NCBI GenBank assembly: GCA_016844605.1
Contig: JAENJD010000017.1
Location: 1-38,595, forward strand
DNA: 38,595 bases
Direction: 5' to 3'
From: Steroidobacteraceae bacterium
GTDB lineage: Bacteria; Pseudomonadota; Gammaproteobacteria; Steroidobacterales; Steroidobacteraceae
Numbering within the stretch: the first letter of the stretch is position 1; each line of letters opens with the position of its first letter. The translations under genes were made by a program, and so were the position numbers. The notes beneath the pieces were generated by a model. It saw only the letters and a program-made list of their open reading frames with translations, ran no database searches and was not told the origin of the DNA. This document shows positions 11,701 to 23,215 of this stretch, one piece after another.

Positions 11701-11950
11701 CCTGTGCACTGCGTTCGGGTCGCTGCCCTTCCTGCTGGCGTCGGGGGCCGGGTCCGAACAACGCAAGCCGATTGGCGTGGTCGTGTTCTTCGGAACGACC
11801 ATTGCCGTCCTGCTGACACTGTTTGCGGTGCCGGCAGTCTACGCACTGATGGCCGGGGAACACCGCTCGCCGAATTACCTGGCGGGGCTCATCGAGCGGC
11901 TGAGGGCTGCAGCGGCGCCGTCCGTGTCAAGCCGCGCTGACCCGTCTTAA
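8795..11950 (+). CDS. RND multidrug efflux pump, HAE1 family
   Basis: At 1051 aa it has the full AcrB-like length. It begins with MKLSELSIRRPVFATVVSLL, the usual first transmembrane helix, and contains two halves of six helices with large periplasmic loops. The TM4 proton-relay motif (GLVVDDAIVVLENIYRR, about residues 396-412) carries the Asp pair, and the second half has GIAAKNGVLIVEFANQ. It exports hydrophobic or amphiphilic compounds using proton motive force. Residue-level features place it in the MdtB/MexF-type proteobacterial group, but substrates cannot be predicted. Confidence 0.95.
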   Translation: MKLSELSIRRPVFATVVSLLLVILGLISLTRLAVREYPEVDPVFVSVQTNYLGAGAVIVENKITQVIEDRIAGLEGIETLRSSSRDGRSAINIEFSSDRDVDAAANDIRDRVGRVIDDLPQEADPPEIQKAESIGEAVMYLNLSSDRMSVLELTDYAERVLVDQLSAAPGVARVNINGERRQAVRIWIDRQALAARALTVADIESSLRRENVELPAGRLESSAREFALRTDTGLSRVEDFRKLSIGRGPDGYLVRLGDVARVELGAENERSVSRSMGLPGISLGIEQNSKANTLEVAQQIYATLERIQPGLPAGMSLTINIDRADSINASLREVMIALGISLSLVLLVIYLFLGNLRATLVPAVTIPISIIATFMFMDVMGYSINVLTLLGLVLAIGLVVDDAIVVLENIYRRVEQGQPPLLAAIDGSREIGFAVIATTLVLISVFVPISFLPGTIGRLFREFGLTLASAVLFSALVALTLTPMMTSRLFRQGQQRGGFARRLDRFFHALSQAYEQKLRMLLDRPWLVIGGTVVLAGVAVIALNALPREFAPPGDLGFVRLELDAPEGASLEYTERQMLQAERILFREVDRYGDIRRFIMRIGSGSATGSTEVNEVRGFVLLTDWGKRKRSAIDVAASLTTQFKDLPGVRARAYAMQGLGSRGFGRPLQVVIGGPDYPTLSGWSDRIQDLARTNPGLVGVDSNFRERKPQIDVAVDRDRAAELGISLETVGRTLETVLGSRVVTTYVDRGREYRVILQGQAQDRVVPSDLQNLYVRSDRSGGLVPLSNLVKLTETSGAMQLNRYDRMRSITISAGLAPGYALGDAVQYFQELIRTELPPAARLSFDGEAREYLRTQGQFWSTFAFAIAIVFLVLAALFESFKQPAVIMTTVPLALIGAIAGLAIFRLAGSPMSLNIFSQIAMIMLVGIAAKNGVLIVEFANQLRDQGLGRVEAVTRAATIRLRPVLMTSLCTAFGSLPFLLASGAGSEQRKPIGVVVFFGTTIAVLLTLFAVPAVYALMAGEHRSPNYLAGLIERLRAAAAPSVSSRADPS

Positions 11951-12179
11951 CTAGTTGAAAAATAAGAAGTTGATGGCTTCACGGCGGGGTTCCGGCGGCC
12001 CCGGCTGGTAGAATTTGGTCCTGAATGGATCGCTCCCGCTGTTCCTGCGGGCGCATCTCGAGAGGCCAAGGCTGAATATCCAGCCGCAGGCCGCCCGATC
12101 GAGGATGTCCGAACCCGGCGCGCGCCGGTGGCCTGGCCGGTATTTCCCGGTACTGGCTCGTGGGCGGAGGAGTCCGGGA
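11951..12179 (+). other. Intergenic stretch with small hairpins before the M32 gene
   Basis: These 229 nt separate the RND pump from the carboxypeptidase. I see a stem CCCGC/GCGGG (12035-12039 with 12047-12051), a GGCTG/CAGCC pair near 12070-12086 and several GC-rich inverted repeats. No T-tract follows any of them. A plus-strand frame runs through from 12015 but has no domain before the carboxypeptidase start. It could be a structured leader, but no known riboswitch or ncRNA core was recognised. Confidence 0.3.
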
Positions 12180-13625
12180 ATGGCGACCGCAACGCCCTAT
12201 CAGCAGCTCGAACAGGAGTTCCGCCGGCTGCACGCGTTTCGCGGCGTACTGGCGGTCTTGCGCTGGGATGCGGCCGTTACGATGCCGCGCGCAAGCGCCG
12301 ACGTACGCGGCGACCAGCTCGCCGCGCTGCAGATCGAGTGCCACACGCTTCTGGTGTCGCCGCGAATCTCGCGGCTGCGCGAGATGCGCCGTCTGCACGA
12401 TCACGCGATCGCGACGCCACCGACGCTGGTCGCGCGCATCGCGCGATCCGTGGCGCTCGCCGAGGCGCGCTGGCGTGAAGCGCGCGAGCAGAATGACTTC
12501 GGCGTGCTGGCGCCGCACCTCGATGAAGTCATCAAGCTGACGCGCAGCAAAGCCGAGCTGCTCGCCCAGCGATTCGGGCTCGATCCCTGGGACGCGCTTG
12601 CGGACGAATTCACGCCGGGGCTGCTTTCGCACGACATCGACGCGATCTTCACGCCGCTGATGCAGCGATTGCCGACACTCGTGACCGAGGCCATGGAAGT
12701 CCAGGCCGCGCATCCCGTGATCAAGATCGAGGGCCGTTTCTCGGCCAGCCGCCAGCGCGGCCTTTGCACCGACGTCATGAAGGCCCTGGGTTTTCCATTC
12801 GACCGGGGCCGCTTCGACGAAAGCGACCACCCGTTCACGGAGGGCGTGCCAGGCGATATCCGGGTCACGGCCAAATTCAACATTAGAGACCCGTTCCAGG
12901 GTTTGCTCGGCGCCTTGCATGAGACCGGCCAGGCCTTGTATGACCTCGGTCTGCCGGCGGAATGGGTAGACCAGCCGGTCGGCCAGGATCGCGGCATGGC
13001 GCTGGAGGAAAGCCAGTCGCTGCTTCTCGAGATGATCGTGGGCCGCAACAAGTCGTTCGTGTCCTGGCTGCGACCGTTGCTCGAAAAGCACTATGGCGCC
13101 GCGGGCCCGGAATGGTCCGATGAAAATCTCTATCGCCACCTGAATCGCGTCGAACGCGGGCCGAACCGCATGGAAGCCGACGAGCTGACCTACCAGACGC
13201 ACATCGGCTTGCGCTACGAACTCGAACGGCGCCTGCTTTCCGGTGATTTGGCGGTGAAGGATCTGCGTGAGGCCTGGCTTGAACTTTCCGCCGACCGTCT
13301 GGGACTGGTGCCCGCATCGGACCTCGAGGGCTGTCTGCAGGACATACACTGGGCATCGGGATCCTTCGGGCATTTTCCGTCCTATGGCGTAGGCGCCGTG
13401 ATTGCCGGCCAGCTCTGGGAATCGATACGCGAACAGCATCCGGGCATCGAGGCCGAAATCGCGGCCGGCCAGTTCGGCGGGCTGTTCGCCTGGCTGCGGG
13501 AGAGGGTGCATTCGCTGGGCGCAAAGATGGGCGTGCCGCAACTTGTGGAGCATGCGACAGGCCGGCCGCTGTCGGCGGCGCCATTCCTGCGCTATCTCGA
13601 GCGCAAGTACGTCTCGGAATTCTAG
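12180..13625 (+). CDS. M32 family carboxypeptidase (Taq type), altered zinc motif
   Basis: The protein has 481 aa from ATG 12180, preceded by GGAGGAG with a 7-nt gap. The all-helical M32 fold is recognisable from LRWDAAVTMP (about 27-36), FNIRDPFQGLLGALHETGQA (233-252), EESQSLLLEM (276-285) and SGSFGHFPSYGVGAVIAGQL. M32 enzymes are metal-dependent carboxypeptidases that trim peptide C-termini in the cytoplasm. The zinc motif is normally HEXXH; here it reads His247-Glu248-Thr-Gly-Gln251, so the second His ligand is Gln. The later HESQS box reads EESQS and keeps the presumed ligand Glu277. Gln variants may exist in a proteobacterial branch, so loss of activity cannot be assumed. ttcA starts 9 nt downstream. 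Confidence 0.9.
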   Translation: MATATPYQQLEQEFRRLHAFRGVLAVLRWDAAVTMPRASADVRGDQLAALQIECHTLLVSPRISRLREMRRLHDHAIATPPTLVARIARSVALAEARWREAREQNDFGVLAPHLDEVIKLTRSKAELLAQRFGLDPWDALADEFTPGLLSHDIDAIFTPLMQRLPTLVTEAMEVQAAHPVIKIEGRFSASRQRGLCTDVMKALGFPFDRGRFDESDHPFTEGVPGDIRVTAKFNIRDPFQGLLGALHETGQALYDLGLPAEWVDQPVGQDRGMALEESQSLLLEMIVGRNKSFVSWLRPLLEKHYGAAGPEWSDENLYRHLNRVERGPNRMEADELTYQTHIGLRYELERRLLSGDLAVKDLREAWLELSADRLGLVPASDLEGCLQDIHWASGSFGHFPSYGVGAVIAGQLWESIREQHPGIEAEIAAGQFGGLFAWLRERVHSLGAKMGVPQLVEHATGRPLSAAPFLRYLERKYVSEF

Positions 13626-13634
13626 AATACTGCC

Positions 13635-14450
13635 GTGATTCCGCTGCCAAAGGAAACTTCGGCCAATTTCCGGCGCCTCGCCGCGCGCCTGCGCGGCCTG
13701 GTTGGCAAGGCGATCACCGATTTCAGGATGATCGGCGAGGGCGATCGCGTGATGGTCTGCCTGTCTGGTGGCAAGGATTCCTACACGCTGCTCGATATGC
13801 TGCTGTCGCTGCAGCGCGCAGCGCCGGTCAGCTTCGAAATCTGCGCGGTCAACCTGGACCAGAAACAGCCCGGGTTTCCGGCGCGCGTGCTGCCCGACTA
13901 CCTCGAGGCGCTCGGCGTGCCATACCACGTGATCGAGCAGGACACCTACAGCGTCGTGCGCCGCGTGATACCGGAAGGCCGTACGCAATGCGGGCTGTGC
14001 AGCCGGCTGCGCCGCGGTGCCCTGTACCGCTTCGCGCGCGAGAATGGCTATACGCGAATCGCATTGGGTCATCACCGCGACGACATCGTAGAAACCTTTT
14101 TCCTGAACCTGTTTCACGGCGGGCGGCTGAAGGCGATGCCGCCGAAACTCCGGTCCGATGACGGCAGCAATGTCCTGATCCGGCCGCTTTGCTATGTGCC
14201 CGAGCGCGAAATCGCGCGCTACGCGCGTGCGCGCGAGTTCCCGATCATTCCCTGCACGTTGTGCGGCTCGCAGCCGAATCTGCAGCGAGTTGCGATGGGC
14301 AAGATGCTCGAGGCCTGGGACCGCGATCATCCCGGGCGTGTCGACTCGATTTTCACCGCGCTTTGCAATGTCGAGCCCTCGCATCTCGCCGATCCGCAGG
14401 TGTTCGATTTCGCCGCGCTCGAGCGCATGACCGCCGGACCCGGCTCCTGA
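13635..14450 (+). CDS. ttcA: tRNA 2-thiocytidine biosynthesis protein TtcA
   Basis: The 271-aa protein is a PP-loop ATPase ([16 protein letters not shown], residues 41-56) with the TtcA CXXC pairs C119/C122 and C207/C210, which hold the Fe-S cluster. The [20 protein letters not shown] segment at 144-163 is strongly conserved. It thiolates cytidine 32 of several tRNAs. It starts with GTG at 13635, and the N-terminus [20 protein letters not shown] matches family members. It is followed after one base by the phosphatase/ADP-ribosylglycohydrolase fusion, so it may lead the operon that includes the cassette at 14452-18037. Confidence 0.95.
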
Positions 14451-14451
14451 A

Positions 14452-15981
14452 GTGGCGCCACAGCCGCCGCCGCTGCCGAACAGCTATTGGGTCGTGCCGG
14501 GGCGCCTGCTCGCGGGCGAGCACCCGTCGGGACCGAACGGGTTGGCGACGCTTGAGCGGTTGCAGCGCCTGCTCGATGCGGGGATCGACTGCTTCATTGA
14601 CCTGACCGAGCCGGGCGAGCTGGACGCCTATGACAAGCTGCTGCCAAGGGCCCACGCAGCTGACGCGGTCGTCTACCTTCGCAGGCCCATCCGCGATCAC
14701 GGCCTGCCTGAATCCACGGAACAGATCGAAGTTATCCTGGACGCGCTGGATTCGAACCTCACCGACGGCCGGCAAATTTACCTTCATTGCCGCGCCGGCA
14801 TCGGCCGCACGAACCTGGTGACCGGCTGCTGGCTCGCGCGCGGCGGGCTGACAGGTGAGGAAGCGCTTCTGCGTCTCAACAAACTGTGGCGCGAAAGCGA
14901 GCGCTCGCAAACCTGGCCCAGCGTTCCCGAAACGCTGGCGCAGTGCGAATACGTGCGCAACTGGAGATCGCAGAGCCCGCGCGCGGCGACCCCGAATTCG
15001 GCGGCACCCGTGGCTGGCCCGACCTGGGCGGCCGCAACCGCGAGCGGCGATCAGCGCGATCGCTGCCGCGGCCTGCTGCTGGGTCTCGCGATGGGCGACG
15101 CGATCGGGCAGTCCACGCATGGCCTGCGACCGGGTCCGGTCGCGACGGATGGTGAATTGGGCGGCGGCGGTCCATTCAGCCTTCCTGCGGGCGCCTGGAC
15201 CGACAAGACGGCGATGGCCTTGTGTCTGGCGGAGAGTCTTGTGGAGCGCGGAGCGCTGGATGCCCGCGATCAATTGCAGCGATATCAGCAATGGCAGAGG
15301 GAAGGCCGCTGGACCAGCACCGGCAGCTGCATCGGGATCAGTCCGGCGACGGCGCGCGCGATTGCGACCGCGCTATGGACCGGGAATCCGTTCGCCGGCT
15401 CGCATGACCCGGCGCATGCGGATGCGGAACCACTGGCCCGGATCGGGCCGGCGGTCGTCTTTGGCCGCGGCAATCCGTGTGAAGCCGTCGAATCGGCGGT
15501 CAACTGCGCGCGTATCACGCATCAGGCGCCCGTGACACTGGATGCCGTGCGCTACTTCGCCGCGCTGCTCGCGGGTGCGCTTGCAGGCGCCGGCAAGGAA
15601 GAACTTCTCGCACCGTACTTCGCCCCGGCTCCGGGATTCTGGGATTCAGTGACATTGAAGAAGCGTGTCAATGACGTTGCCCTGGGATCGTGGAGGCGCA
15701 GCAAGCCGCGGGCCGTCCAGACCGGTACGAATGCGGCAACAGGCGCACTCGAGACCGCACTGTGGGCATTCGAGCATGGCAGCAGTCCTGCAGAATGCCT
15801 TGGCATCGCTGCGAGCTTCGGCGGTAACGCAGACATCACGGCCGCGATTGTCGGTCAGCTTGCCGGTGCACATTACGGCGCGGCCGCGCTGCCGCCGGCC
15901 TGGCGCACGGCGGTCGCGCGCGGCAGTGAAATCCAGGCGCTAGCCGATGCCCTATACGAGGCCGGGATGCGGCCAGCATGA
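14452..15981 (+). CDS. Dual-specificity phosphatase fused to a degenerate ADP-ribosylglycohydrolase
   Basis: The 509-aa protein (GTG start) has two parts. Residues about 10-170 form a cysteine phosphatase with the loop HCRAGIGRT (nucleophile Cys113, Arg119) and a plausible general acid in the RRPIRDHGLP segment. Residues about 203-500 match the ADP-ribosylglycohydrolase fold: RCRGLLLGLAMGDAIGQ, GAWTDKTAMALCLAESL, LETALWAF and GGNADITAAIVGQLAGA. The usual metal motifs are changed: TDDT to TDKT (250-253), FDIGNTT to IGISPAT, DTLEAALW to ATGALETALW, and GGDADT to GGNADI (457-462). The hydrolase half is therefore likely inactive or altered, perhaps an ADP-ribose or nucleotide sensor. The stop overlaps the next ATG by 4 nt. 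Confidence 0.85.
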   Translation: MAPQPPPLPNSYWVVPGRLLAGEHPSGPNGLATLERLQRLLDAGIDCFIDLTEPGELDAYDKLLPRAHAADAVVYLRRPIRDHGLPESTEQIEVILDALDSNLTDGRQIYLHCRAGIGRTNLVTGCWLARGGLTGEEALLRLNKLWRESERSQTWPSVPETLAQCEYVRNWRSQSPRAATPNSAAPVAGPTWAAATASGDQRDRCRGLLLGLAMGDAIGQSTHGLRPGPVATDGELGGGGPFSLPAGAWTDKTAMALCLAESLVERGALDARDQLQRYQQWQREGRWTSTGSCIGISPATARAIATALWTGNPFAGSHDPAHADAEPLARIGPAVVFGRGNPCEAVESAVNCARITHQAPVTLDAVRYFAALLAGALAGAGKEELLAPYFAPAPGFWDSVTLKKRVNDVALGSWRRSKPRAVQTGTNAATGALETALWAFEHGSSPAECLGIAASFGGNADITAAIVGQLAGAHYGAAALPPAWRTAVARGSEIQALADALYEAGMRPA

Positions 15982-17009
15982 AGCTGCGAGGACACAGTCA
16001 TGCCGCCTGGCAACGGCTCGACGATGAGCGGTTGCTGGACATGCGTCTCTGCGACCTCGGATTGCGAATTGAGGGCTCGCCGGTCGAGTCGCAGGTCGAG
16101 CGTCTGTATCGCGATCTGGAAGCCCGCAGCATCAAATTTCGCCCGCATTGCTGGATTGCGGAAGAATGGTTTTCGCCGGACGGCGTGCCGGGGTTCGCTG
16201 TCCCCTTCTACATCCTGCATCCCCGATTGAAAATATTGCAGCGCCGCTTCATGGGAGAGGTGGAGGGCGGGAACGCGCAGTCGCTAATGAGAATTCTGCG
16301 CCATGAGGCGGGTCACGCCATCGACACCGCCTACCGATTACGCAGACGCAAGAAATGGCGCGAGAATTTCGGCTACGCTTCGACCCCGTATCCGCAGCAC
16401 TACCGTCCGCGGCCCGGCAGCCGGCGCTATGTCCAGCACCTCGGAAACTGGTACGCGCAGAGTCATCCGACCGAGGATTTCGCCGAAACACTGGCGGTCT
16501 GGCTGACACCACGATCGGACTGGCGCAATCGTTACGCCGGCTGGCCCGCCATCCACAAGCTGAATTACGTCGACGAACTGATGCGGGAAATTCACGACGA
16601 GGTGCCGGTATCGCGGGCCCGCTACCATGTCGAGCCGTTGAGGAGTGCGCGCTGGACCTTGCGTGAGCATTACCGGCGCATGGCGCGGCACTACCGCACT
16701 GACGATGCCGAACGGATGGACAGGATTCTGGGGCGCGTATTCACGCCGAATCGAAGTCGCCGCGGCCAGGCGACCGCCGCACGGCGGTTGCGGGAGGATC
16801 TGCCGATATTCAGGCGCCGAATTGCGCGCCGGCTGGGCGCCAGCGAGTACCTGGTACAGGAGGTCGTCGAGAACCTGATATACCGCTGCGCCGCGCATGG
16901 CCTGCTGGTGCGGGACGATTGGCGTGACACGAGGCGCCGCGTGGAACGCCTCATAATCGCGCTGGTGCGCAGGGCGATGCGCAATGCCGGACCCAAGCTG
17001 GCCCTATGA
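15978..17009 (+). CDS. Putative zinc-binding metallopeptidase
   Basis: The 343-aa soluble protein has a clear metallopeptidase motif HEAGH (His109, Glu110, His113) in LMRILRHEAGHAIDTAYRL. A downstream acidic segment, HPTEDFAETLAVWLTP, carries candidate third ligand Glu170. It has no signal peptide, so it is cytoplasmic. The C-terminal third is very Arg-rich and helical (RRLREDLPIFRRRIARRLG). It resembles the family loosely named putative zinc-binding metallopeptidase; no substrate is known to me. It overlaps both neighbours by 4 nt (ATGA), which ties it to the fusion upstream and the ATP-grasp enzyme downstream. Confidence 0.8.
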   Translation: MKLRGHSHAAWQRLDDERLLDMRLCDLGLRIEGSPVESQVERLYRDLEARSIKFRPHCWIAEEWFSPDGVPGFAVPFYILHPRLKILQRRFMGEVEGGNAQSLMRILRHEAGHAIDTAYRLRRRKKWRENFGYASTPYPQHYRPRPGSRRYVQHLGNWYAQSHPTEDFAETLAVWLTPRSDWRNRYAGWPAIHKLNYVDELMREIHDEVPVSRARYHVEPLRSARWTLREHYRRMARHYRTDDAERMDRILGRVFTPNRSRRGQATAARRLREDLPIFRRRIARRLGASEYLVQEVVENLIYRCAAHGLLVRDDWRDTRRRVERLIIALVRRAMRNAGPKLAL

Positions 17010-18037
17010 AAAAGAAAAAACGCATTCTCGTGCTGGTTCACGAAACCCTGGTGCCGCCGGAGAATCTCGATGGCGTCACGGACGCCCAGATAGCCGAGTT
17101 TCGCACCGAGCTCGACGTCATCACGAAGTTGCGCGAATGCGGGCACGAAGTGCAACCACTTGGCATCGGTGACAGTCTCGGCGAGCTGCGCACAATGATC
17201 CGGGACTGGAAGCCGCAGATCTGCTTCAACCTGCTGGAGGAATTCGGCGGTGTCGTGACCTATGACCAGCATGTGGTCGCCTATCTGGAGTTGCTGCGCC
17301 AGCAATACACGGGATGCAACCCCTGCGGCATGATGTTGTCGCGCAACAAGGTACTGTCAAAGCAGATACTTACCTACCACCGCATTCCGACGCCGCTGTT
17401 CGCCGTATTCAAGCGCGGCTCAGCGATTCGCATCCCGGCGCGCCTGCGCTATCCGTTGTTTGTCAAGTCGGCGACGGAGGATGCTTCGCTCGGAATCTCG
17501 CAGGCCTCCGTAGTCGACGATGCCACCAAGCTGCGCGAGCGCATTGCCTTCATCCATGAGCACACCAATTCCGACGCCCTGGTCGAGGAATACATCGAGG
17601 GCCGCGAACTCTATGTCGCGATTCTCGGCAACGAACGGATTCGCACGCTGCCGCCTTGGGAGTTCATTTTCGGTGAACTAAAGGACGGCCGGGTCGCGAT
17701 CGCGACACGCAAAGCGAAGTGGGACCACGCCTATCAAGAGCGCCACAACATTACGAGTCGTGCAGCGGAAGACCTGCCCGAGGGCCTGGCTGAAAAGCTC
17801 GATCGCCTGGCGCGTCGCATCTATCGTGCGCTGCACATGTCCGGCTATGCGCGGGTGGATTTTCGCGTGCGCGCCGACGGCACGCCATTCGTTCTCGAAG
17901 CCAACGCCAATCCAAACCTTGAGAAGGACGAGGACTTCGCGTGGGCAGCGGCGCACGCGGGCGTCGATTATGCGGCACTGCTGGAGCGCGTCATCGCGCT
18001 CGGCTGCGCGTACCGGGCGGAGTGGCGTCAGGATTGA
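17006..18037 (+). CDS. ATP-grasp ligase, D-Ala-D-Ala ligase-like
   Basis: The 343-aa protein has the ATP-grasp pattern. Lys154 lies in LFVKSATEDASLGIS, with EEYIEGRELYVAILG at 194-208. The metal-binding stretch is RVDFRVRADGTPFVLEANAN (283-302; Asp285, Glu298, Asn300). Such enzymes join a carboxylate to an amine through an acylphosphate. The N-terminus (NLLEEFGGVVTYDQHVVAYLELLRQQYTGC) resembles the non-housekeeping DdlA-like group often found beside modification or protease genes. The presence of a coupled peptidase suggests a peptide or amino-acid conjugate rather than cell-wall D-Ala-D-Ala. No regulator is adjacent. Confidence 0.85.
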   Translation: MKKKKRILVLVHETLVPPENLDGVTDAQIAEFRTELDVITKLRECGHEVQPLGIGDSLGELRTMIRDWKPQICFNLLEEFGGVVTYDQHVVAYLELLRQQYTGCNPCGMMLSRNKVLSKQILTYHRIPTPLFAVFKRGSAIRIPARLRYPLFVKSATEDASLGISQASVVDDATKLRERIAFIHEHTNSDALVEEYIEGRELYVAILGNERIRTLPPWEFIFGELKDGRVAIATRKAKWDHAYQERHNITSRAAEDLPEGLAEKLDRLARRIYRALHMSGYARVDFRVRADGTPFVLEANANPNLEKDEDFAWAAAHAGVDYAALLERVIALGCAYRAEWRQD

Positions 18038-18060
18038 CCTGTTGTCCGCCGGTCAGGTCA
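18035..18060. terminator. Inverted repeat between convergent genes
   Basis: TGACCTG (18035-18041) and CAGGTCA (18054-18060) are exact complements with a 12-nt loop. The repeat sits between the convergent ATP-grasp and ABC transporter genes. There is no T-tract, so it is at best a weak bidirectional terminator. Confidence 0.35.
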
Positions 18061-18070
18061 GCCGAGGCGA

Positions 18071-19915
18071 CTATCTGTAAGCCTTTGCCTGCAGGGAAAA
18101 CAGCTGCGCGTAATGCCCGTTCATGCGCATCAGGTCATCATGGCTGCCGCGCTCGATGATGCGGCCGTCCTGCAGGACCACGATCTGGTCGGCCATGCGT
18201 ACCGTGGAGAAGCGATGCGAGATGAGGATCGCAATGCGGCCTTTCGTCAGTGTGCGGAAGTGCTCGAAAATGGTTGCCTCCGCGCCGGCGTCCATGGCGG
18301 CGGTCGGTTCGTCCAGTACCAGGATGTCTGCGCGCGAGCGCATGAAGGCGCGCGACAGCGCGATCTTCTGCCATTGGCCACCTGACAATTCGCGACCGTC
18401 GTTGAACCATTTGCCCAGCGGCGTCCGGTAGCCCTGCGGAAGAGTGTCGACGATCGGTGCCGCCAGGCCTTTTTCGCCAGCCTCACGCCAGCGTTCTTCG
18501 TCCTCGAAGTGCCTTACGTCGCCGGCGCCGATGTTCTCGCCGAGAATGAGTTGATAGCGCGCGAAGTCCTGGAAGATCACTCCGATGCGATCGCGCAACG
18601 CGGCCTCAGCCCATTCACGCAGGTCCAGTCCGTCCAGCGTAATGCGCCCGGCGGTCGGCGAGTACAACCGCGTCAGCAGCTTGATCAGGGTTGTTTTGCC
18701 GGAGCCGTTTTCGCCGACCAGGGCGAGCGACTCGCCCGGCTTGATATGCAGGTTCACATCGACCAGCGTCGGTTGCTCGGCTTCCGGATAGCTGAAGCTG
18801 ACATTTTCGAAGTGGATTCCGTCGTCGGGCCTGGGACCGCGGATAGCCGCGCCCATGCGGTCACCCACCGGCGTATCGAGATACTCGTAAAGCGTCGACA
18901 GATAGAGGTTGTCTTCGTACATGCCGCCGACGGCGGACAGGATTGCGGACACGGCCGATTGCCCTTGCCGGAACAGCATCAGGTACATCGTCATCTGGCC
19001 AAGCGTGATGCGGCTCGCGATCGCGGAGAGGGCAATCCATGCATAGGCTCCGTACAGCGTTGCGATTGCGATCAGCCCAAGGAGAAAGCCCCAGGTGTCG
19101 CGGCGGATCGTGAGATCGCGATCCTCCTTGTAGAGTCTGCGAAAGATGTCGCGGTAACGCTCGAGGAACAGCGGACCGAGCCCGAACAGCTTTACTTCCT
19201 TCACGTGGTCTTCGCGCGCGAGCACGGTTTCCAGATAAAGCTGCATGCGCGTCTCAGGAGAGCGCCAAAGGAACAGGCGGAACGCCTGACCCGAGAATTT
19301 AGCCTCTGCCAGGAATGCCGGCAGTCCCGCGAGAAACAGCAACAGCACCGCCCATGGCGAGAAGCTGAACAGCAAGGTGCCGAAGCTCATCAGCGATACG
19401 GCGTTTTGCCCAAGACCGAAGGTGCGCATGACCAATGAGAGCGGCCGGCTCGAAGCTTCGCGGCGCGCGCGTGTCAGCTTGTCGTAGAAATCCGAGTTTT
19501 CGAAATGCGCCAGCTCCAGCGTCAGCGCCTTTTCCAGAATCATGACGTTCACGCGCTGGCCGAGTTGAGCACGCAGCAGCGACTGGCACAGCGAAATACC
19601 GCGTTGCGCACCGGCGATCGTCGCGATCAGCAGGGCTTCGGCGGCGACGAAAACGAGCGCATTCCTGGAAAGCGCGGCACGCGCCGTTTCGTCCGCCTGA
19701 ATCGCCGCAACGACCGCATCGACGATCAGCGCCCCGACGTACGCAACCGCGGCGGGAAGCGTGCCGGCGACCAGCGTCAGTAATGCGAAGGCAACCGTCA
19801 GTGGCCGGCTGGTGGTCCAGACCAGTTCCAGCGCACGGCGGCTATAGGCAAAAACGCCGAGAAATCCGCGCGTGAGATCGGGCTTTGACAGCGTGGGTCT
19901 GCGCGGTGGATTCAA
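18071..19915 (-). CDS. ABC exporter, fused permease and ATPase
   Basis: The 614-aa half-transporter has a six-helix membrane domain at about 38-335, then an ATPase domain. The ATPase has Walker A GENGSGKT (401-408), Q-loop FQDF (448-451), signature LSGGQ (510-514), Walker B ILVLDE (531-536) and the His switch at 567. The conserved LAHFENSDFYDKLTRARRE loop is shared with exporters of lipids, peptides or antibiotics. It should work as a homodimer in the inner membrane. It starts 28 nt after the S9 peptidase stop and is the last gene of a five-gene minus-strand set. A peptide or peptide-derived cargo would fit the neighbouring peptidase, but that is only inference. Confidence 0.9.
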   Translation of the reverse strand: MNPPRRPTLSKPDLTRGFLGVFAYSRRALELVWTTSRPLTVAFALLTLVAGTLPAAVAYVGALIVDAVVAAIQADETARAALSRNALVFVAAEALLIATIAGAQRGISLCQSLLRAQLGQRVNVMILEKALTLELAHFENSDFYDKLTRARREASSRPLSLVMRTFGLGQNAVSLMSFGTLLFSFSPWAVLLLFLAGLPAFLAEAKFSGQAFRLFLWRSPETRMQLYLETVLAREDHVKEVKLFGLGPLFLERYRDIFRRLYKEDRDLTIRRDTWGFLLGLIAIATLYGAYAWIALSAIASRITLGQMTMYLMLFRQGQSAVSAILSAVGGMYEDNLYLSTLYEYLDTPVGDRMGAAIRGPRPDDGIHFENVSFSYPEAEQPTLVDVNLHIKPGESLALVGENGSGKTTLIKLLTRLYSPTAGRITLDGLDLREWAEAALRDRIGVIFQDFARYQLILGENIGAGDVRHFEDEERWREAGEKGLAAPIVDTLPQGYRTPLGKWFNDGRELSGGQWQKIALSRAFMRSRADILVLDEPTAAMDAGAEATIFEHFRTLTKGRIAILISHRFSTVRMADQIVVLQDGRIIERGSHDDLMRMNGHYAQLFSLQAKAYR

Positions 19916-19943: not shown

Positions 19944-21989
19944 TCACTGCAGGTGCGCATCGAGCCAGTGCAGCACTTCTTCGTACCACTGCAGGCTATT
20001 GGCGGGTTTCGAAATCCAGTGATTTTCGTCCGGGAAGAACAGGAACCGGCTATCGATCCCGCGACGTTGCAGCGCCGTGAATGTCGCGATGCCCTGAGGG
20101 TACGGAATCCGGTAATCGAGCGCTCCATGGATCACGAGCATCGGCGTCTTCCAGGCGGACACATGGTTGGCCGGATTGGACTTTTCGTGCGCTGCGGGAT
20201 TGTCGTAATAGGGACCGCCCTGGTCCCATTCAACGAACCACAGTTCCTCGGTTGAGTAGTACATCGTCCGGTGATCGAATACGCCGGCGTGGTTCACGAG
20301 GCAGCGAAACCGGTCCGGCCAGTTGCCGGCGATCCAGTTCATCATGTAGCCGCCGTAGGATGCGCCGAGAGCGCAGGCGCGATCACGATCCAGCCAGGGG
20401 TAGCGCTCGGCCGCCGCGGCGAGACCTTTTTTCAGATCCTCCAGCGGCTTGCCGCCCCAGTCGCCGCTGATCGAGTCGGTGAACGCCTGCCCGTAGCCCT
20501 GCGAGCCGTGGAAATCGATGAACACGGCCGCTAAGCCCGCGCCCGCGTAAATCTCCGGGTTCCAGCGATAGCTCCAGGTATTGGCATAGCTTGATTGCGG
20601 CCCGCCGTGCACGATGAAAGCAACCGGATAGGACTTGCCGGGCTCCCAGTTCCATGGCTTGACCACGTAGCCGTAGACCTGCTCGCCGCCGGCGCCGGCG
20701 AAGCTGAATTGCTCCGGCTCTCCGAAGCGGACGTCGGCGAGACGCACAGCATTCACCTCGGTCAATCGCCTCGGTAGCGCGTGGCCCACGATCAGGTATA
20801 GATCGACGGGCGAGATGAGGCTTTGCATCGCGAAGAGAATCCGGTCGCCTGCGACATCGAATTCAGTGACGTTGCCCGGCCCGGTGAGCATCCGGCGCGC
20901 GCCATCCTTGATATTGATTGACCAGATCGGCCGCTGCCCGAGATGTTCGGTCACCGCATAGATCTGCCGGCCATCCGCCGAGAACCTGAAGGCTGCGATC
21001 GAGCGATCCCAGTCGCGGGTGGTGAAGCGCAATGCTCCGGTCGCCGCATCGCGCACGACGAGGTGAAAGCGATCGGCCTCGAAGCCGGGCCGATCCATCG
21101 CAATGTGCGCGAGCAGCCTGCCGTCGGGTGAAAACGCCGGCTGGGCATCCCACGCCGGGTTGTCCGGTGTCAGATTGACCGGCGCAACGCCGCCGTCGGA
21201 CGGCACGCGATAGACGTCGAAATTGGTGGACCAGGGCTCGGTGCGGCCACGGACCCGCGCCGCAAAAACGACCTGGCTGCCGTCTGGGCTGAAGTCGTAG
21301 TCCGGGCGGTCGCCGAATGGCTTCGAGGGCACGTTGGCATCCAGCGACCCGGTCAGTGCGACCGGTGACCCCGATGCGTTGTGCTCGCCGTCGAGTGCGA
21401 ACGCATACAACTGCGACACGCGCCCGTCCTGCCACTTGTCCCAGTGCCGCACGAACAGCTGGTCATAGCCCTGCCCATGCTGCTTCGCGCTTTTCCGCTC
21501 ATCGAGCCGCTTGCGCGTGCAATCGAGGTCGCCGCAGTCAGGGAAGACCTCGATCCCGAACAACAGCCGGTCGCCACGCGGAGAAATCCTGAAGCTGCCG
21601 ACATCGAGCGGCAGGCGCGTGACCTGGGTTGCTTCACCGCCGGCAACCGGCAGGTACCAGACCTGCGTCGAGCCTCCACGCGCCGACAGGAAATAAATGC
21701 CGCCGCCATCGGGCGCCCAGTCGGCTGCCGTGTCGTTCTCCTCGCTGCTCGTCAACCGGCGTGGCGTGGATACGCCATCGGTGCCAATCAGCCAGAGGTC
21801 GCTGCGACCGCGATCAGCCGCGAGATCCGTTTCGCGCAGCGTGTAGACGGCGCTTCGTCCGTTCGGCGAGAGCTGCGCCTCGGAGACGCGCGCAAGCGCC
21901 ACCAGGTCTGCCGCATTCAAGCCGCGGGGTGCGGCGAATGAGGGCAGCGAGAGGGTCGCCATCGCGGCGGCAAGCAGCAGGCGTCGCAT
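19944..21989 (-). CDS. S9 family peptidase (prolyl oligopeptidase / DPP-like), exported
   Basis: The protein has 681 aa from ATG 21989, with signal peptide MRRLLLAAAMATLSLPSFAA. An N-terminal beta-propeller (repeated FSPDG/WAPDG strands to about residue 395) precedes an alpha/beta hydrolase domain. The nucleophile is Ser544 in GASYGG, with Asp625 in ALDYRIP and His657 in DENHW. It is likely a periplasmic or secreted dipeptidyl or acylaminoacyl peptidase acting on short peptides. The upstream ATG at 22031 would overlap the FIST gene stop and put a charged tail before the signal peptide, so 21989 is preferred. Confidence 0.92.
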   Translation of the reverse strand: MRRLLLAAAMATLSLPSFAAPRGLNAADLVALARVSEAQLSPNGRSAVYTLRETDLAADRGRSDLWLIGTDGVSTPRRLTSSEENDTAADWAPDGGGIYFLSARGGSTQVWYLPVAGGEATQVTRLPLDVGSFRISPRGDRLLFGIEVFPDCGDLDCTRKRLDERKSAKQHGQGYDQLFVRHWDKWQDGRVSQLYAFALDGEHNASGSPVALTGSLDANVPSKPFGDRPDYDFSPDGSQVVFAARVRGRTEPWSTNFDVYRVPSDGGVAPVNLTPDNPAWDAQPAFSPDGRLLAHIAMDRPGFEADRFHLVVRDAATGALRFTTRDWDRSIAAFRFSADGRQIYAVTEHLGQRPIWSINIKDGARRMLTGPGNVTEFDVAGDRILFAMQSLISPVDLYLIVGHALPRRLTEVNAVRLADVRFGEPEQFSFAGAGGEQVYGYVVKPWNWEPGKSYPVAFIVHGGPQSSYANTWSYRWNPEIYAGAGLAAVFIDFHGSQGYGQAFTDSISGDWGGKPLEDLKKGLAAAAERYPWLDRDRACALGASYGGYMMNWIAGNWPDRFRCLVNHAGVFDHRTMYYSTEELWFVEWDQGGPYYDNPAAHEKSNPANHVSAWKTPMLVIHGALDYRIPYPQGIATFTALQRRGIDSRFLFFPDENHWISKPANSLQWYEEVLHWLDAHLQ

Positions 21990-22027
21990 GATTCGGGTCT
22001 CCGGCGGGATTCTGACTGGCGATTCTA

Positions 22028-23215
22028 TCAAGCGCTTCCAGCCATGCGCGGCCGGATCAGGCCGAACACGCTCGAGAATCCGTGCAGGAAGGTCGCGCCC
22101 TGGATCGGCGCGATCTCGCCGGCGCAGAACATGCCGGCGACCGGAACATCCACGAATCGACGCAATGCGGCGGAATCATGACCGGGAACGCCAAACAGGT
22201 TGCGGCCGCGTGCCGCACAGGCGAAAAGGAGCGCAGCGACGGGCGGCAGGCGTCCGTCGAGCGCAGTGCCGAGACGCGCTGACAGTTCGCGTGACGCCGC
22301 ATCGCCGTCACGCAGGTGAAATTGCACGACGGCATTTCGCGCGAGGCGCGCCCCGATCCACAGCGCGCCGGTGTCCGGGTCCAGGCCCAGCACATTCCGG
22401 ATCAGGAACTCGCCCGTGCCGACGTTCTGGCCGGGGCCGGGAAGTGCGAGGCCGATGCACAGCGAGTCCCCAAAGAGTTCGCGATCACGCTCGTCGAGAC
22501 TCGCGAACAGGGCGGCGAGCAGTTCCCTCGGCCTGCGGCCATCCAGTTCGTGCAGCAGATTGCCGTCACAGGCGGTCACGAAGAGTGGTTCGCCGATCGC
22601 ACGGCAGCCCTGCGCGATGACCGGATCGATCACGACATTTCCCGTCAGCGCAAGCAGCAGGCCCCCCGACCGGTGGACATCGCGATTTGCGAACAACCGC
22701 GCAGCGCCAGGTTCGGATACGCCGCTGGCCAGGCCGCCAACGACCGTTGCGCCGGGATATGCGCGGTCAATGCCCCGCGCGCAGGCTTCAGCGTCGATGG
22801 TCGCGGGATCTGTCAGGAGCAGGAAGCTTGCGGCCGATTCCGGGGCGAGATCGAGGAGTCTCCACCAGATTTCCCGGGTGGCTGTGAGTGGCGGCAGCGT
22901 CGCCTGCTCGAGATGCAGCGCCGTCAAGGTCACGTCGCCGAGCCGCCCTGCCAGTATCGCGACGCCCGGTTCCTCTTCCACTTCATTGCCACCGCCGATG
23001 AGGCCGCCGGCATTGCAACCGAACAGGATGCCCTTGCCGAGCCAGGGCTCAAGCGCTCCAGGCAGCCCTTCCATGGCCGCGCCGTAGGCGGCCGAAACAA
23101 ATGCAATCACGAGATCCGGCCGGGTCATCCCCGATTCGACCGTCAATCGTTCGAGCGCCTCGTCGGCGGCCGATTCAAGGTCCTGGCCAAGACCGATGGC
23201 GCTGGCCCATTTCAT
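22028..23215 (-). CDS. FIST domain (N and C) sensory protein
   Basis: The 395-aa protein has a FIST N domain (about 30-215) with LVIAFVSAAYG, GKGILFGCNAGGLIGGGNEV and GATVVGGLASG. A FIST C domain follows (about 220-375), ending VPVAGMFCAGEIAPIQGATFLHGFSSVFGLI. FIST domains bind small ligands, often thought to be amino acids or metabolites, and usually feed two-component or cyclic-di-GMP systems. Here it stands alone, with no output domain or kinase in the operon. It has no signal peptide and so is cytoplasmic. It lies 12 nt after the GST gene and 38 nt before the S9 peptidase. Confidence 0.9.
   Translation of the reverse strand: MKWASAIGLGQDLESAADEALERLTVESGMTRPDLVIAFVSAAYGAAMEGLPGALEPWLGKGILFGCNAGGLIGGGNEVEEEPGVAILAGRLGDVTLTALHLEQATLPPLTATREIWWRLLDLAPESAASFLLLTDPATIDAEACARGIDRAYPGATVVGGLASGVSEPGAARLFANRDVHRSGGLLLALTGNVVIDPVIAQGCRAIGEPLFVTACDGNLLHELDGRRPRELLAALFASLDERDRELFGDSLCIGLALPGPGQNVGTGEFLIRNVLGLDPDTGALWIGARLARNAVVQFHLRDGDAASRELSARLGTALDGRLPPVAALLFACAARGRNLFGVPGHDSAALRRFVDVPVAGMFCAGEIAPIQGATFLHGFSSVFGLIRPRMAGSA

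Follow-up and report, generated by a model that had tools for sequence, protein, structure and literature searches.

The window, by which we mean the whole analysed stretch of 38,595 nt from a member of the Steroidobacteraceae, contains a close-packed run of genes on the plus strand. Here DSP denotes a cysteine phosphatase domain, ARH an ADP-ribosylglycohydrolase domain, PEP a putative zinc peptidase gene and GRASP an ATP-grasp ligase gene. The features are, in window coordinates:

12171..13625, + strand: M32 carboxypeptidase (Taq type); PF02074, 431.2 bits; open frame from 12015, start provisional
13635..14450, + strand: ttcA, tRNA 2-thiocytidine(32) synthetase; NF007972, 449.8 bits, cut-off 272
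14452-15981, + strand: DSP-ARH fusion ORF; GTG start, 509 aa
14452..14985, + strand: DSP domain; PF22785, PF22784 and PF22741 above cut-offs; HCx5R at residue 112
15022..15978, + strand: ARH-fold domain; PF03747, alignment to solved relatives and motif counts
15978..15981, + strand: ATGA overlap of DSP-ARH stop and PEP start, from the sequence
15978..17009, + strand: PEP, predicted zinc peptidase; ATG start, 343 aa; PF15887
17006..17009, + strand: ATGA overlap of PEP stop and GRASP start, from the sequence; conserved widely
17006..18037, + strand: GRASP, ATP-grasp ligase of D-Ala-D-Ala-ligase fold; ATG start, 343 aa; PF07478

The original prediction had described three genes joined by ATGA overlaps at 15978 and 17006, and these ORFs and both junctions are exactly as it gave them. 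Its assignment of a phosphatase/ARH fusion, an HEAGH peptidase and an ATP-grasp ligase is corroborated by Pfam matches. Since the M32 carboxypeptidase gene lies directly before ttcA, the run comprises five genes (M32, ttcA, DSP-ARH, PEP and GRASP), with gaps of 9 nt, 1 nt, -4 and -4. In the neighbourhoods of 80 named loci, an M32 gene was found upstream of ttcA in many Pseudomonadota; it is the first member of the run by synteny and stands outside the conserved PEP-GRASP pair. Likewise, ttcA is linked by synteny only, and also occurs in relatives without the pair. Promoters inside the overlaps, which had been named as potential counter-evidence, were not detected: 11800-18200 contains two promoter-like sites, both outside the overlaps, and internal promoters were rejected because this number is at chance level (mean of 1.2 in shuffles).

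Domains and conserved residues

The DSP half of the fusion matched PF22785, PF22784 and PF22741 above their cut-offs and CDKN3 narrowly so. Among 46 distinct fusions, 42 retain the HCx5R loop, which reads HCRAGIGR in the window. The ARH half matched PF03747 with 173.8 bits (cut-off 26.2). The dinuclear metal site of ARH enzymes consists of the TDD and DxDT/S motifs. Alignment to solved relatives revealed that this site is incomplete in the window, where TDDT has become TDKT and DADT has become NADI; the motifs were strictly intact in one of the 46 distinct fusions, and the four Asp residues were kept in 14; a relative with intact motifs lies at locus L008. The removal of ADP-ribose proposed earlier is therefore unlikely, and judged by its sequence the ARH domain in the window is probably no longer a hydrolase. 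PHROGs gave matches for the DSP-ARH gene alone, namely to a phage ARH family, an unnamed family and, over the phosphatase half, a "thymidylate synthase" family.

PEP matched Peptidase_Mx (PF15887) with 31.0 bits against a cut-off of 27, over 80 of 236 profile positions and with the HEAGH motif. Residues H109, E110 and H113 (HExxH), Y159 and E166 were invariant in 81 sequences, and we take them to be metal-site residues as in solved enzymes. Together they give the pattern of lethal-factor-like zincins, HExxH followed by Tyr-x6-Glu; lethal factor and PPEP-1 have an equivalent Tyr and Glu. The predicted model (pLDDT 89.2), with a helical C-terminal half, showed a modest match of residues 1-208 to the lethal-factor-like zincin fold (Z 8.4, 5.4 Å rmsd over 169 residues), and its best Foldseek match, a weak one, was the putative zinc metallopeptidase 4l7a (E 0.13). 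We regard PEP as a putative peptidase only, predicted to be zinc-dependent, with residues in a pattern like that of lethal factor.

GRASP matched the C-terminus of D-Ala-D-Ala ligases (PF07478, 100.4 bits), and its predicted model (pLDDT 92.8) matched 1ehi_A over the whole Ddl fold (Z 33.3, 2.7 Å over 312 residues). An alignment of 68 GRASP rows revealed invariant residues and conserved ATP/Mg positions, which presumably serve in ATP and Mg handling. With the Ddl profile TIGR01205, GRASP scored 109.1 bits, under the cut-off of 245.65, and the genome's own separate Ddl (G000:C50) scored 315.1 bits. The latter contains PGMTSHSL, where the GRASP family has NPN(L)...ED without PGMTxHSL, the acceptor loop of Ddl. 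Because the genome has its own Ddl elsewhere, we reject an identity of GRASP as the peptidoglycan Ddl; it is near enough to D-Ala-D-Ala ligases to carry their name, yet very probably not one of them.

Distribution of PEP, GRASP and DSP-ARH

Figures for the 80 named loci cover near relatives, these being the closest 80 of 464 relatives, and the counts are not independent, the loci being related by descent. GRASP sat next to PEP and downstream of it at 78 of these loci, spanning Pseudomonadota, Planctomycetota, Acidobacteriota, Myxococcota and Gemmatimonadota; the planctomycete loci include L084 and L099 of Rhodopirellula. At locus L107 PEP is followed by a different gene, and at L075 by no gene in the 382 nt remaining on the contig. 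At 69 of the 77 loci with a measurable PEP/GRASP junction (the GRASP fragment of L032 being too short), the two genes overlap in frame by 4 nt, as NTGA, and 55 of those 69 overlaps read ATGA; the overlap was found in four of the five phyla. A mirror-tree correlation of 0.74 was obtained, uncorrected for species kinship. In a scan of 398 Pseudomonadota genomes, with five candidates scored per genome, the same nine genomes from two genera had both GRASP (E<=1e-60) and a strong PEP match (E<1e-120), and the two genes were adjacent in the eight other than the window's; weak PEP matches (E 1e-7 to 9e-4) were discounted as belonging to other members of Peptidase_Mx. The occurrence of a ligase and a peptidase in the same order across five named phyla, four of which share the 4-nt overlap, indicates that PEP and GRASP were very probably selected to act together. 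The co-translation and functional coupling originally claimed are supported, most strongly for this pair. Among neighbour clusters of at least four loci, one crossed phyla, an ABC-transporter-like ORF at seven loci; its positions were scattered over both strands, and we take it as chance, not as a third partner outside the lineage. The open-licence PMC literature yielded no description of the PEP-GRASP pair among the matches listed.

DSP-ARH was added in the window's own family, which is Steroidobacteraceae-like, and among its close relatives. DSP and/or ARH occurred near PEP-GRASP in 21 of the 80 named loci, all Pseudomonadota, besides one weak, distant DSP match at L089. Within the window's family, 35 of 36 genomes had DSP and/or ARH matches, and measurements placed these domains beside PEP or GRASP at 49 loci (repeats counted). 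PEP is absent from nine of the 36 genomes. The trio as originally conceived is therefore not the unit. GRASP is kept in eight of the nine PEP-less genomes, and there the gene directly before it, at -4 to 31 nt, is DSP-ARH or, in one genome, ARH without DSP; in six of these eight, GRASP retains all 39 invariant positions. The tree needs seven changes of PEP presence, of which well-supported branches force two. Genome G037 is 82% complete; its PEP is cut off by the end of a contig, and the genome yielded no GRASP. A PEP match in G038 (E 1.9e-4, two stops) was set aside as another Peptidase_Mx protein. GRASP divergence relative to ttcA was slightly greater without PEP (one-sided p 0.013, 8 vs 24 related genomes, leaving out G016 and G032, which lack ttcA), an effect too weak to lean on.

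Proposed function and rival explanations

We tentatively propose, with a probability of about 0.45 for the whole, that an old module of two enzymes, PEP followed by GRASP, forms the unit, and that DSP-ARH was added to it as a control. PEP and GRASP would be produced together through translational coupling, presumably in the cytosol. GRASP would convert a carboxylate to an acyl phosphate and join it to an amine, probably not D-Ala to D-Ala. PEP would most likely cleave the amide made by GRASP, for turnover or as an eraser, since GRASP survives the absence of PEP and PEP seldom occurs without an adjoining GRASP. DSP-ARH, with its decayed ARH domain, joined the operon in one Pseudomonadota lineage, probably as a regulator or ligand sensor. 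The tagging and untagging suggested originally could still operate through the ligase and the peptidase, but not through ADP-ribose chemistry.

It speaks against this explanation that members of the window's family can have GRASP without PEP, and that PEP might equally make the substrate of GRASP. A maturation pathway, not a writer and eraser, would result if PEP acted first and trimmed a cellular peptide or protein, the new end of which GRASP extended or capped. The gene order and tight overlap are consistent with this, and passages of PMC8939145 suggest that peptidases beside some precursor-less ATP-grasps cut cellular proteins for substrates. However, the persistence of GRASP in eight PEP-less genomes, with its invariant residues nearly unchanged, makes PEP hard to hold as the maker of its substrate, and we consider this pathway rather doubtful.

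DSP-ARH could also go with ttcA and M32, or alone, and merely be placed before PEP-GRASP. The order M32-ttcA-DSP-ARH is common to many Pseudomonadota loci; in genome G019 DSP-ARH stays beside M32-ttcA with the PEP start ~20 kb off; and sequence divergence is faster in DSP-ARH than in PEP and GRASP, the spacing of DSP-ARH to PEP in relatives ranging from -4 to 270 nt. By contrast, genome G009 has DSP-ARH-PEP-GRASP on C9 and ttcA on C7, which shows that the set can stand apart from ttcA, and the PEP-less genomes retain DSP-ARH or ARH close before GRASP. We judge such hitch-hiking unlikely.

By analogy, PEP-GRASP might form a reversible C-terminal modification cycle, in which a sequence-specific zinc endopeptidase clips the end of a cellular protein, to be restored or replaced by a Ddl-fold ligase, with control in one lineage by a phosphatase and an ADP-ribose-fold sensor, but we think this quite improbable. 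Tubulin detyrosination and tyrosination would be its eukaryotic parallel.

Very improbable is a trio combining phosphate and ADP-ribose removal or sensing with proteolysis and ligation, perhaps countering ADP-ribosylating enzymes: DSP and/or ARH are nearly constant in the family, and passages of PMC9503650 describe ARG-phosphatase fusions as predicted anti-viral systems, but the ARH motifs are mostly not intact, beyond Pseudomonadota no DSP-ARH adjoins the pair save the match at L089, and the searches were negative: none of the three proteins matched PADLOC, PEP had no match in plasmid and phage collections, and viral contigs, where 23 pattern stretches were tested, yielded no relative of GRASP. 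On these searches a defence or mobile-element reading was likewise rejected.

The preferred reading, a PEP-GRASP module with DSP-ARH as a control, places bond-making and bond-cutting enzymes back to back and so would imply make-and-break chemistry inside the cell. Identifying the amide that they handle would reveal either a small-molecule pathway that is new or a cycle of protein tagging in bacteria. Within a single family PEP can be missing, the phosphatase-ARH fusion has been acquired and the ARH motifs have decayed, a natural series in which the role of each part can be tested.

Comparison with known systems

Passages of PMC9503650 (2022) describe ARG and rhodanese-phosphatase systems in which an ADP-ribosylglycohydrolase is fused or coupled to a cysteine phosphatase; over 42% of these systems have a Nudix or WYL regulator, although this is not strictly required. 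DSP-ARH resembles these in joining ARH to a cysteine phosphatase. Whereas many of those systems have Nudix/WYL regulators, chaperones or nucleases, no Nudix/WYL regulator was found among the two genes on either side of DSP-ARH (M32, ttcA, PEP and GRASP), and the ARH motifs of the window are decayed. The passages of that paper on ATP-grasp or peptidase do not describe the PEP-GRASP pair.

PEP resembles the Peptidase_Mx, lethal-factor-like and Pro-Pro endopeptidase zincins in having HExxH followed by a Tyr and, seven residues on, a Glu; it differs from them in being chromosomal, coupled to a ligase and provided with an extra helical C-terminal half. Lethal-factor-like peptidases and ARG immunity proteins are both covered in passages of PMC3482391. 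GRASP shares with Ddl and Van ligases the whole-length fold, the conserved ATP/Mg positions and PF07478, and differs in its score below the Ddl cut-off, its NPN(L)...ED loop, its peptidase partner and the separate Ddl in the genome.

A RiPP/graspetide cluster would carry a conserved short precursor beside its ligase. Among short ORFs flanking the loci, the 14 largest clusters (5-7 loci each) did not extend beyond related loci, which makes such a reading doubtful. In a survey of amidoligases, Iyer et al. (2009) reportedly noted ATP-grasp ligases genomically linked to peptidases with no evident precursor. An analysis of graspetide-related ligases reports, in passages of PMC8939145, several unrelated peptidase families beside branches 7 and 8 of the precursor-less ATP-grasps. 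PEP-GRASP is like these branches in linking an ATP-grasp to a peptidase with no evident precursor, and unlike them in pairing one Ddl-type family with one peptidase family.

Layout of the gene run

The three open reading frames and the ATGA overlaps at both junctions, which the original prediction had read from the sequence alone, were matched on re-reading of the window (contig C77 of its source assembly; 2.09 Mb, 138 contigs, 87% complete). Because an M32 carboxypeptidase gene and ttcA abut the first of these frames, with gaps of 9 nt (carboxypeptidase to ttcA) and 1 nt (ttcA to DSP-ARH), the run comprises five genes:

12171-14450, M32 carboxypeptidase and ttcA, a tight pair 5' of DSP-ARH
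14452-15981 (+), DSP-ARH, a fusion of cysteine phosphatase (DSP) and ADP-ribosylglycohydrolase (ARH) domains
15978-17009 (+), PEP, a Peptidase_Mx-type protein bearing HEAGH
17006-18037 (+), GRASP, of the Ddl-type ATP-grasp family by profile match

The order M32 then ttcA recurs in many Pseudomonadota loci. A promoter/terminator scan of 11800-18200 found two promoter-like sites (mean of 1.2 in shuffles), neither of which falls in an overlap. A gene 3' of the run (19944-22031, minus strand) appears by eye to be S9-type prolyl oligopeptidase-like; genes of similar appearance also lie downstream in loci L164 and L165, the latter outside f1, the window's Steroidobacteraceae-like family.

GRASP and PEP as a conserved pair

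On the Ddl model, whose cut-off is 245.65 bits, GRASP reached 109, and a true Ddl (315 bits) is encoded elsewhere in the genome, on contig C50; judged by these scores, GRASP is thus a Ddl paralogue with another job. Residues K115, K154, E194, D285, E298 and N300, which we take to be ATP/Mg residues, were unchanged in 68/68 alignment rows. The PGMTSHSL loop of the genome's own Ddl is replaced by NPN(L)...ED in the GRASP family. The predicted structure (pLDDT 92.8) aligned with Ddl enzymes along almost its full extent (Z 33). In genome G049, from another family of the order, two adjacent ATP-grasp genes (C4:483401-485313) are distantly GRASP-like (34% and 28%) and possibly represent a further ligase system.

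Residues 1-208 of the PEP model (pLDDT 89.2) modestly resemble lethal-factor-like zincins and Pro-Pro endopeptidases (Z 8.4, 5.4 Å, 169 residues), with Z 7.1 against PPEP-3 and 4l7a as the top Foldseek match (E 0.13). Z scores of such size would on their own be weak evidence of fold likeness. The HExxH at 109-113, Y159 and E166, the last two seven apart, are invariant in 81/81 rows, and lethal factor and PPEP-1 presumably carry the same HExxH followed by Tyr and Glu at that spacing; this residue pattern lends independent support to the resemblance.

At least 464 PEP relatives from named genomes were confirmed, and the best 80 of these were scanned for the other genes. By record title these loci, mostly metagenome bins, comprise 34 Planctomycetota, 30 Pseudomonadota, 9 Acidobacteriota, 3 Myxococcota, 1 Gemmatimonadota and 3 unassigned. 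GRASP lies directly 3' of PEP in 78/80, the exceptions being L107, where a different gene comes after PEP, and L075, where GRASP is absent from the 382 nt of contig remaining. The PEP stop and the in-frame GRASP start share an NTGA overlap in 69 of the 77 loci with enough GRASP sequence (ATGA in 55), namely in 28/29 Pseudomonadota, 29/33 Planctomycetota, 7/8 Acidobacteriota, 2/3 Myxococcota, 0/1 Gemmatimonadota and 3/3 unassigned loci, and thus in four of the five named phyla. A cruder start-codon rule gave -4 nt spacing in 93/108 loci, some genomes being counted more than once. When 398 genomes were drawn evenly from the phylum, strong PEP and strong GRASP matches occurred in the same nine, namely the window's own genome plus eight from a single further genus; these represent two genera and not nine independent cases. 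The tree of joined PEP and GRASP rows (n=68) sorts by phylum (6 label changes vs 28.2 in shuffles), a grouping that fits an old module with apparently few moves between phyla. Of the neighbour clusters with at least four loci, only a scattered ABC-transporter-like ORF (7 loci) occurs in more than one phylum.

Distribution and motifs of DSP-ARH

DSP and/or ARH matches lie near PEP-GRASP in 21 of these best 80 loci, all Pseudomonadota; L089 adds one weak, distant DSP match. DSP-ARH was undetected in L046, L052 and L087, though M32, ttcA, PEP and GRASP are present there. Between ttcA and PEP, L052 (4639-5823) and L046 (4674-5861), from MAGs (isolates bog_1223 and palsa_1208), have an opposite-strand gene, acetyltransferase-like by eye.

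Among 59 relatives compared, f1 comprises 36 genomes including the window's own, with GRASP (E<1e-100) in 35/36, DSP and/or ARH in 35/36 and PEP in 27/36. GRASP follows straight after DSP-ARH (after ARH alone in G017), at -4 to 31 nt, in eight of the nine PEP-less genomes. In the ninth, G033, DSP-ARH is followed by a stub (L164:3219-3785) that by eye reads like the N-terminus of PEP: SWIRLSDEKLLQMRSCDLTLS. GRASP and the remainder of PEP are missing there, which looks like a deletion. ARH is absent next to PEP in G013 and G016. Outside f1, four relatives matched PEP: G044 and G057 have it with GRASP and without adjoining DSP-ARH, the G037 contig stops inside PEP (GRASP not found), and G038 gave a weak match with two stops. 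From this pattern of absences, GRASP is the most constant member of the gene set. Evidence that DSP-ARH hitch-hikes with M32-ttcA is mixed: in G009 DSP-ARH-PEP-GRASP is on contig C9 and ttcA on C7, whereas in G019 DSP-ARH remains together with M32-ttcA, about 20 kb from the PEP start.

Removal of ADP-ribose, which the original prediction named as an alternative to sensing, is undermined by motif decay. Compared with the solved relatives 2cwc, 6dre and DraG 2woe, the window's ARH has TDKT in place of TDDT, and NADI where they carry DADT or DADS. Of the 51 fusion rows, 46 are distinct; among these, one (L008) has both strict motifs intact, 14 retain all four Asp, and 42 retain the phosphatase HCx5R. 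Of the four rows without HCx5R, one is simply truncated. Since the strict pair is nearly always lost, ADP-ribosyl hydrolysis is unlikely as the conserved ARH function; ligand binding is possible, and activity may persist in fusions that retain the complete set of Asp.

Proposed roles and known systems

Most likely, GRASP would form an amide via an acyl phosphate and PEP would act on the product, as eraser to GRASP's writer; DSP would probably act as a regulator. Loss of an eraser leaves the writer usable and loss of the writer makes the eraser useless, which fits the lopsided pattern observed (eight genomes retain GRASP and lack PEP; in 2/80 loci PEP has no adjoining GRASP). The main rival is the opposite order, with PEP supplying the GRASP substrate. 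PEP presence on the GRASP tree needs 7 changes, of which well-supported branches force 2. Of the eight genomes with GRASP and no PEP, six have all 39 invariant GRASP positions unchanged; two differ at H125, and one of these at F132 as well. H125, invariant in 68 rows and altered in these two (L160, L163), is a candidate position tied to PEP.

Among the matches listed, no description of the PEP-GRASP pair was found in the open-licence literature. PMC9503650 describes ARH-phosphatase fusions as predicted anti-viral systems, and the pair does not appear in its available text. Precursor-less ATP-grasps with linked peptidases appear in an analysis of graspetide-related ligases (PMC8939145).
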